From the NCBI RefSeq assembly GCF_000789235.1, contig NZ_KN525716.1:1022071-1086070 (forward strand): a stretch of DNA of 64,000 nucleotides, read 5' to 3'. Origin of the DNA: Wocania ichthyoenteri Th78. GTDB taxonomy: Bacteria; Bacteroidota; Bacteroidia; Flavobacteriales; Flavobacteriaceae. Under the pieces are notes generated by a model, which saw only the letters and a list, made by a program, of their open reading frames with translations, did no database searches and was not told the DNA's origin. This document shows, piece by piece, positions 50,479 through 51,358 of this stretch. The translations under genes and the position numbers were made by a program. Numbering within the stretch: the first letter of the stretch is position 1; every line of letters begins with the position of its first letter.

Positions 50479-50673
50479 TTATTTTTTAGTTCCTAAATAC
50501 TGTTTCCCATTTACTCCCCAATTTTCTATTGGTATTTCATCAATAACCACATGGGTTGTTTGTGGGTTTTTGTTTAGTACTTCAACTACTAACTGTGTAG
50601 CTCCTTCTATTAATTGACGTTTTTGTTCTTGTGTCACTTGTTCATCGGTAACTCTAATATTAATGTATGGCAT
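50479..50673 (-). CDS. 4-oxalocrotonate tautomerase family protein
   Basis: Protein of 64 residues: MPYINIRVTDEQVTQEQKRQ, with Pro-1 as the catalytic base after Met removal, then TQLVVEVLNKNPQTTHVVID and ENWGVNGKQY. It isomerises unknown enol/keto substrates. First gene of the tautomerase-SDR-NTF2 operon, 5 bp before the SDR gene. Confidence 0.9.
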   Translation of the reverse strand: MPYINIRVTDEQVTQEQKRQLIEGATQLVVEVLNKNPQTTHVVIDEIPIENWGVNGKQYLGTKK

Positions 50674-50738
50674 AACTTTTCTATTAAATTAATGTTATAC
50701 AAAGGTGATGAGAACCTAAAGTGTTAGAAAGGAGGTTT

Positions 50739-50757
50739 ATCACTTCTTTGAAGTGAT
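50739..50757. promoter_or_regulatory. Perfect inverted repeat ATCACTTC-TTT-GAAGTGAT
   Basis: 8-bp arms with a 3-nt spacer, in the 121-bp gap between the Crp-like gene and the tautomerase operon. Probably an operator; no T tract, so it is a poor terminator. Confidence 0.55.
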
Positions 50758-50758
50758 G

Positions 50759-50775
50759 CAAGTCACATTGACTTG
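50759..50775. promoter_or_regulatory. Perfect inverted repeat CAAGTCA-CAT-TGACTTG
   Basis: 7-bp arms with a 3-nt spacer, one base away from the other inverted repeat. It has a Crp/Fnr-like layout (half-sites around a short spacer). Confidence 0.55.
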
Positions 50776-50794
50776 ATTATAGTAGGTAATAAAG

Positions 50795-51358
50795 TTATGA
50801 GTTTAATCTACTAAGTGTTTCTCTAGAAACACCTAAATAAGCCGCAATCATTTTTTTGGGGACACGTTGGAAAAGTTTTGGGTATTGTTCGAGAAGTAAA
50901 TCGTATTTTTCTTTAGTTGAATTCTTTAACAATGACAGAATCCTATTTTGAAGTGCAATACGACCAATTTTACTTTTTTTAGCCCAAAAACGTTCCATTT
51001 TATGCATTTGAGCAGTCAGTTTATCTCTGTTTTCGAAAGATATATATAGTAATTCACTATCTTCTATACAGTCGATAGAAGTTTTAGATTTGGTTTGTTT
51101 TACAAAAGATTCATAATCTGTAATCCACCAATTCTCCATTCCAAATTGAAGTATGTATTCCTTTCCTGCGTTATCAACAAAGTAGCTTTTTAAACACCCT
51201 TTTATTATCCAGTATTCTTTATTGACAATTTCTCCTTCTTGGACAATATATTGATGCTTACGCTTATTAATTTGCACAAAATGACTCAAAACAAAATCAA
51301 ATTCCTCATCTGTAAGGTTAATTACTTCTTCTATATGCTGTCTTAGAGGATGTGTCAT
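50795..51358 (-). CDS. Crp/Fnr-family transcriptional regulator
   Basis: Regulator of 187 residues: an N-terminal cyclic-nucleotide-binding-like beta roll (HQYIVQEGEIVNKEYWIIKG ... GKEYILQFGMENWWIT) and a C-terminal helix-turn-helix (PKKMIAAYLGVSRETLSRLNS) that ends right after the recognition helix. It lacks Fnr iron-sulfur cysteines. The ATG at 51358 is preferred to an upstream TTG. It precedes the tautomerase-SDR-NTF2 operon on the same strand, with two inverted repeats between, so it may regulate that operon. Confidence 0.88.
   Translation of the reverse strand: MTHPLRQHIEEVINLTDEEFDFVLSHFVQINKRKHQYIVQEGEIVNKEYWIIKGCLKSYFVDNAGKEYILQFGMENWWITDYESFVKQTKSKTSIDCIEDSELLYISFENRDKLTAQMHKMERFWAKKSKIGRIALQNRILSLLKNSTKEKYDLLLEQYPKLFQRVPKKMIAAYLGVSRETLSRLNS

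Follow-up and report, generated by a model that had tools for sequence, protein, structure and literature searches.

The window analysed here, a stretch of 64,000 nucleotides from Wocania ichthyoenteri Th78, contains a gene for a Crp/Fnr-type regulator, followed by an operon of three genes encoding a 4-oxalocrotonate-type tautomerase, a short-chain dehydrogenase/reductase (SDR) and an NTF2-like protein (Table 1). As the regulator and the operon both lie on the minus strand, the 121-bp gap between them (50674-50794) is 3' of the regulator gene and forms the 5' region of the operon. A first-pass annotation of this DNA had described two perfect inverted repeats without T tracts in the gap, placed between a Crp-like regulator and a tautomerase-SDR-NTF2 operon, and this description proved accurate in each respect. 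The arms of palindrome 1 (50739-50746 and 50750-50757; 8 bp each) and of palindrome 2 (50759-50765 and 50769-50775; 7 bp each) match exactly across 3-nt spacers, a single base separates the two palindromes, and no terminator-like site was found at 50600-50900.

Table 1. Genes and predicted regulatory features around the regulator-operon gap (positions in the window).
Feature	Position	Strand	Remarks
NTF2-like protein (Lumazine_bd_2), 124 aa	49349..49723	-	Pfam PF12893 3.6e-25
Short-chain dehydrogenase/reductase (SDR), 247 aa	49730..50473	-	Pfam adh_short_C2 3.6e-49
4-oxalocrotonate-type tautomerase, 64 aa	50479..50673	-	Pro after Met; Pfam Tautomerase 5.6e-21; TIGR00013 1.1e-20
Predicted transcription start (A)	50695..50695	-	Leader of 22 nt; derived from the -7 box
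-7 element, CACCTTTG	50700..50707	-	Bacteroidota sigma-A consensus TAnnTTTG (PMC9723704)
Box 2, AGTGA-TAAACC-TCCTT	50729..50744	-	CRP-type site with altered right half; predicted centre -41.5
Palindrome 1	50739..50757	.	Composed of one half-site each of box 1 (right) and box 2 (left)
Box 1, TGTGA-CTTGCA-TCACT	50752..50767	-	CRP-type site; predicted centre -64.5
Palindrome 2	50759..50775	.	Not conserved except its TGTGA part, which belongs to box 1
Crp/Fnr-type regulator, 187 aa from ATG	50795..51358	-	Pfam cNMP_binding PF00027 4.1e-8; recognition helix SRETLSR

Judged as letters alone, the palindromes are only mildly unusual. At least one perfect repeat was present in 425 of 5000 first-order Markov sequences generated from the gap, and two or more were present in 120 of these 5000 and in 26 of 528 tiles of 121 bp taken from the window (arms of at least 7, spacer of 2-8, different spacers on one axis counted apart). 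Given that 120/5000 such sequences hold two repeats, the repeats by themselves prove little. The genome search for the two motifs that had been suggested gave no support to palindromes as genome-wide motifs: at ≤3 and ≤2 mismatches, respectively, neither was commoner than its backwards control (17 versus 27 and 10 versus 11 matches per strand).

Phylogenetic footprinting of the gap, also proposed in the first-pass annotation, was performed with regulator orthologues from whole genomes and named genome contigs (the best 80 of 116). The 99 loci at ≥68% identity yielded 86 distinct 95-nt segments, which were anchored on their best match to TGTGA-N6-TCACT (box 1) and aligned without gaps in gene sense; the same anchoring was applied to 4250 shuffled gaps as a control. 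The tautomerase gene lay less than 700 nt from the regulator stop in 89 of the 99 loci and at 700-1700 nt in 4 more. The alignment revealed a conserved composite that reads, on the minus strand, TGTGA-N6-TCAC-N9-GTGA-N6-TCCT-N26-TTTG, i.e. a pair of CRP-type boxes with 23-bp spacing and, a set distance further on, a Bacteroidota -7 element. Counted over the 86 segments, many of which are related and hence not independent events, GTGA and TCAC of box 1, on which the segments were anchored, occurred together in 82 (shuffled gaps: 7/4250), GTGA of box 2 at +24 in 85 (6/4250) and TCCT of box 2 at +34 in 81 (13/4250), while 82 had TTTG precisely at +64 (18/4250) and the remaining 4 had it one base later, at +65. 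Upstream of box 1, and from TCCT to the -7 element, conservation was poor. The footprint supports a regulatory role of the gap, with the neighbouring Crp-like regulator as its likeliest binder. The conserved TCCT lies within CCTCCTT (50730-50736), the letters of the anti-Shine-Dalgarno end of 16S rRNA; since CCTCCT is kept in 43/86 segments, this likeness is probably a coincidence.

The sigma-A -7 box of Flavobacterium psychrophilum is TAnnTTTG at -12 to -5 (PMC9723704). Taking the G of TTTG as -5, after that source, sets the predicted start at 50695 and the predicted centres of box 2 and box 1 at -41.5 and -64.5; the column of the predicted start is a purine in 84/86 orthologous segments. According to PMC5957442, Crp sites in E. 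coli are most frequent at -41.5 for class II and at -61.5 for class I. With a predicted centre equal to the class II peak, box 2 would occupy the class II position, where it overlaps the place of the -33/-35 element, the start itself being predicted. Box 1 would be centred 3 bp further out than is usual for class I, whose sites are expected at -61.5 or in phase with that position. No conserved TTG was found in the 86 aligned segments where a -33 element would lie.

The regulator belongs to the CRP/FNR superfamily, which combines a cNMP-binding-like domain with a C-terminal helix-turn-helix, as judged from its cNMP_binding domain and from full-length matches to 3dn7 (4.2e-31) and to E. coli CRP chains (from 2.1e-5) among PDB sequences. 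In CRP, R180, E181 and R185 read GTGA, and the R-E-x-x-x-R helix of the regulator, the conserved GTGA-N6-TCAC sites and the association between helix and sites described below all point to CRP-type specificity. The residues by which CRP contacts cAMP are R82, S83 and E72. In the phmmer alignment the regulator has a gap opposite the part of CRP that includes R82/S83, which would make cAMP an unlikely signal; the NCBIfam CRP model scored 30.2 bits against a cut-off of 266. The regulator also differs from an FNR-type iron-sulphur protein in that it has two cysteines, both mid-sequence, and in that the conserved sites are GTGA-N6-TCAC.

Eight CRP-like proteins were found in this genome at E≤0.001. 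RETLSR is present in the neighbouring regulator only, the helices of the other seven being TPEYLSE, TPEFLSR, TPESLSR, KAESLSR, TPTQLSR, DPTNYSK and TSVQLSR, and GTGA-N6-TCAC was absent from the 3.5-kb loci of these seven. The genome holds one exact composite, and the nine next matches have 3 mismatches. The only other match to a degenerate box in this genome, TGTGACAAAAGTCACA, lies just past a 263-aa open frame (L193, G000:C1:3091000-3091015). We compared 56 homologue loci selected by protein similarity from a larger set of homologues (30 whole-genome, 19 family-genome and 7 own-genome loci). All 35 RETLSR loci carry a module on the strand of the gene and near its 3' end (30 tandem at ≤2 mismatches, 5 single), compared with 0 of the 20 intact non-RETLSR loci; as the RETLSR loci fall into a single branch when judged by identity (44-100%, others 22-40%), this link is an association of one branch and not of many independent events. 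At the 21st locus of the latter group (L021, G053:C176) the regulator is broken by frame changes or stops, an intact C-terminal piece matching at 86% in another frame; the tandem module persists, different DNA takes over some 100 nt past the predicted -7 box, and the locus gave no match to the tautomerase.

In the family of this organism, the regulator was detected at E≤1e-52 in 42 of 397 genomes and the composite at ≤1 mismatch in 34. All 25 genomes with an exact composite have the regulator at this cut-off. The other nine comprise five with the regulator, one (G053) with the broken copy below the cut-off, and three (G314, G398 and G361) in which a 1-mismatch composite occurs with no regulator at E≤1e-52. 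The latter composites look like chance, given that the backwards control matches 9 genomes. Conversely, 12 of the 42 regulator genomes are without a composite at ≤1 mismatch. Among the loci examined from these 12, which are those of genomes other than G149, G176, G213, G334, G365 and G405, a single box was seen at L013, L017 and L053 and a 2-mismatch composite at L016, L051 and L052. An autoregulatory box before the regulator gene was also considered and is not general, as GTGA-N6-TCAC occurred within 250 bp in 2 of 85 cases with at least 200 bp upstream.

The composite also accompanies regulators of 48-57% identity, there in front of unrelated operons. In the distant loci L184-L191, whose modules were found without using TTTG, TTTG is at the same offset in 12 of 12 modules. 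In L184, L185, L186 and L190, the module at the regulator is extended by a third CRP-type box, another 23 bp upstream, and a second module precedes a further operon roughly 1.7 kb downstream. A scan of 395 genomes of the class for the composite with TTTG gave exact matches at 7 places, including this one, and 1-mismatch matches at 8. A RETLSR regulator adjoins the 6 other exact and 6 of the 8 near-exact places, the composite lying just downstream in 11 of these 12 and divergently upstream at L225; as the search pattern included TTTG, its position in these modules (L224-L235) is not independent evidence. At ≤3 mismatches the composite was found in 62/395 genomes and the backwards control in about 70, and for this reason only matches with 0 or 1 mismatch were followed. 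The two remaining 1-mismatch places, L236 and L237, show GTGA-N6-TCAC-N9-GTGA-N6-TCAT with a TTTTG-type -7 box and no RETLSR regulator in the 5.5-6 kb seen; this layout possibly represents sites of another CRP/FNR-type regulator.

The genes behind the module vary and include those for DJ-1/PfpI, aldo/keto reductase, SDR, nitronate monooxygenase, YceI, glyoxalase, MFS, cyclase and DUF1349 proteins, among others. DoxX joins the tautomerase in some orthologues, and at L102, L106 and L119 a 281-286 aa protein of unknown function is encoded between DoxX and the tautomerase. The five single-box loci (L013, L017, L020, L049 and L053) have a box with both half-sites intact and TTTG 40-41 nt from GTGA, which corresponds to the predicted class II position. 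Box 1 accompanies proximal boxes with TCCT and is absent beside those with TCAC; single and tandem designs may thus be two ways to sufficient occupancy at the predicted position -41.5. The regulator was found at E≤1e-52 in none of the three other genomes of the genus, relatives with 88% and 83% identity occur in a Pedobacter and a Roseivirga record, respectively, and horizontal transfer of the regulator is likely. On balance, we lean towards regarding the RETLSR branch as a portable regulator-plus-promoter cassette, in which the regulator gene would carry its own promoter of fixed geometry, usually within tens of bases, in front of swappable stress or detoxification operons, and in which two designs would exchange: an intact single box at -41.5, or a TCCT box rescued by a second one 23 bp upstream. 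If true, the two designs offer a natural series for studying CRP-type activators with the Bacteroidota polymerase.

Sequence comparison across these loci establishes the site pairs, their spacing, the association with the RETLSR branch and the independence from the cargo genes. We consider it quite probable that the gap serves the tautomerase-SDR-NTF2 operon as its promoter, with two tandem sites for the adjoining regulator acting as a class II activator; the regulator would probably be a dedicated, local member of the CRP family. One regulator dimer would bind box 2 at -41.5, over the place of the -33/-35 element, and touch RNA polymerase as a class II activator, while a second dimer would abut on the better box 1 at -64.5 and help the first onto the poorer box 2. 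The lasting asymmetry of TCCT, the right half of box 2, may reflect a trade-off against contact with the sigma factor. The enzyme operon would be switched on once the cNMP-like domain senses its signal, which is probably not cAMP. From the mix of enzymes, one may guess at reactive carbonyls or electrophiles as the signal, and the first-pass suggestion of a pathway for an enol/keto compound is possible, as it fits a tautomerase, an SDR and an NTF2-like fold.

Some points speak against activation from tandem boxes: box 2 is without a canonical right half, the 23-bp spacing sets the predicted centre of box 1 off the usual class I position by 3 bp, and a site covering the -35 region could suit a repressor as well. 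With the same sites and the same regulator, a dimer on box 2 could block RNA polymerase until a signal releases it, as its predicted overlap with the place of the -33/-35 element would allow. We regard repression as improbable: a repressor needs less exact phasing, yet the boxes and the -7 element keep a base-exact distance (82/86 segments with the other 4 longer by one base, and all of the 12 distant modules), and -41.5 is the classic activating position (PMC5957442).

Far less probable is the proposal that the two palindromes are themselves operators, i.e. separate dyads for the regulator or another dimer. The core of palindrome 1, TCAC-N9-GTGA, is indeed present in 83/86 segments, but it consists of the right half of box 1 and the left half of box 2 and follows from the two tandem boxes. 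Its half-sites are 13 bp apart, compared with 10 bp for a CRP dimer, and the five single-box loci are wholly without palindrome 1. As a perfect repeat, palindrome 1 occurs in 3 of the 86 distinct orthologous gaps (mean 5.97 of 8 pairs) and palindrome 2 in 1, namely this one (mean 2.6 of 7 pairs). In a shuffle test the pairs flanking palindrome 1 were complementary in excess (pair 15/23, 57 versus 43.7; pair 16/22, 45 versus 33.5), and the outer pair of box 1 (0/15) showed no such excess. Counted on a tree, however, pair 15/23 had 6 joint changes (1.8 expected, p 0.0037), pair 16/22 had none, and the control pair 15/22 scored too (p 0.0078). Covariation was therefore set aside for choosing between the dyads, the shuffles favouring the axis of palindrome 1 and the tree-based count being indecisive. 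The excess pairing, which the tandem boxes do not need, could reflect contact between neighbouring dimers, or nothing.

Of the first-pass claim that the repeats are binding sites, the regulatory nature of the gap and the neighbouring regulator as likeliest binder thus stand, as far as sequence comparison can tell, and the palindromes as conserved units do not. Box 1 overlaps the facing arms of the two repeats, which in plus-strand order are the right one of palindrome 1 and the left one of palindrome 2, and because the conserved tandem boxes straddle the palindromes, the suggested competition between dimers on the two repeats is unsupported. Very probably, the palindromes are overlapping views of two side-by-side sites for the neighbouring CRP-like regulator; perfect palindromes picked by eye can arise as by-products of tandem sites. 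Least probable of all are RNA hairpins (a terminator, attenuator or processing site) in a read-through transcript of the regulator, since, although the RNA of the gap folds both repeats (-17.8 kcal/mol, z -1.80; 10/200 shuffles fold as well), they are without a T tract or an intrinsic terminator at 50600-50900, palindrome 2 is not conserved, the fixed spacing to the promoter element points to DNA, and both repeats lie outside the operon's own transcript given the predicted start.

If class II activation from the tandem boxes is right, the site bound, the layout of the promoter and the target operon have been predicted from sequence alone for a recurrent branch of Bacteroidota regulators. The branch would then also offer a simple case of class II activation with the unusual sigma-A promoter of Bacteroidota, and a means of identifying which genes other such regulators control. 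In titles and abstracts, mostly of open-access papers and with subscription papers largely outside, we found no description of this regulator branch or its sites. The closest solved sequence is 3dn7, a cyclic nucleotide binding regulatory protein (residues 5-185), for which we know of no DNA site; unlike SRETLSR, its helix TPEYLSE is of the type of the non-RETLSR paralogues in this genome. FNR-type regulators have an N-terminal cysteine cluster and the site TTGAT-N4-ATCAA. Together with FNR/DNR-type proteins, the regulator belongs to the same superfamily and matches the NCBIfam Fnr model weakly (5.4e-8, 32 bits, cut-off 228), but it differs from them in its RETLSR helix, its GTGA sites and its two cysteines, neither of which is in an N-terminal cluster. 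The consensus site of E. coli CRP is TGTGA-N6-TCACA. The site in the window, GTGA-N6-TCAC, matches it, and SRETLSR aligns with SRETVGR of CRP. Box 2, if centred at -41.5 as predicted, would also be placed as in E. coli CRP class II promoters (PMC5957442). Unlike E. coli CRP, the regulator appears local and dedicated to its operon, its proposed tandem dimers are 23 bp apart, box 2 has the asymmetric half TCCT, the promoter has a Bacteroidota -7 box, and the segment around R82/S83 of CRP is aligned to a gap. As a CRP-type regulator it is of a known kind; new here is a local regulator with a promoter of fixed tandem sites.
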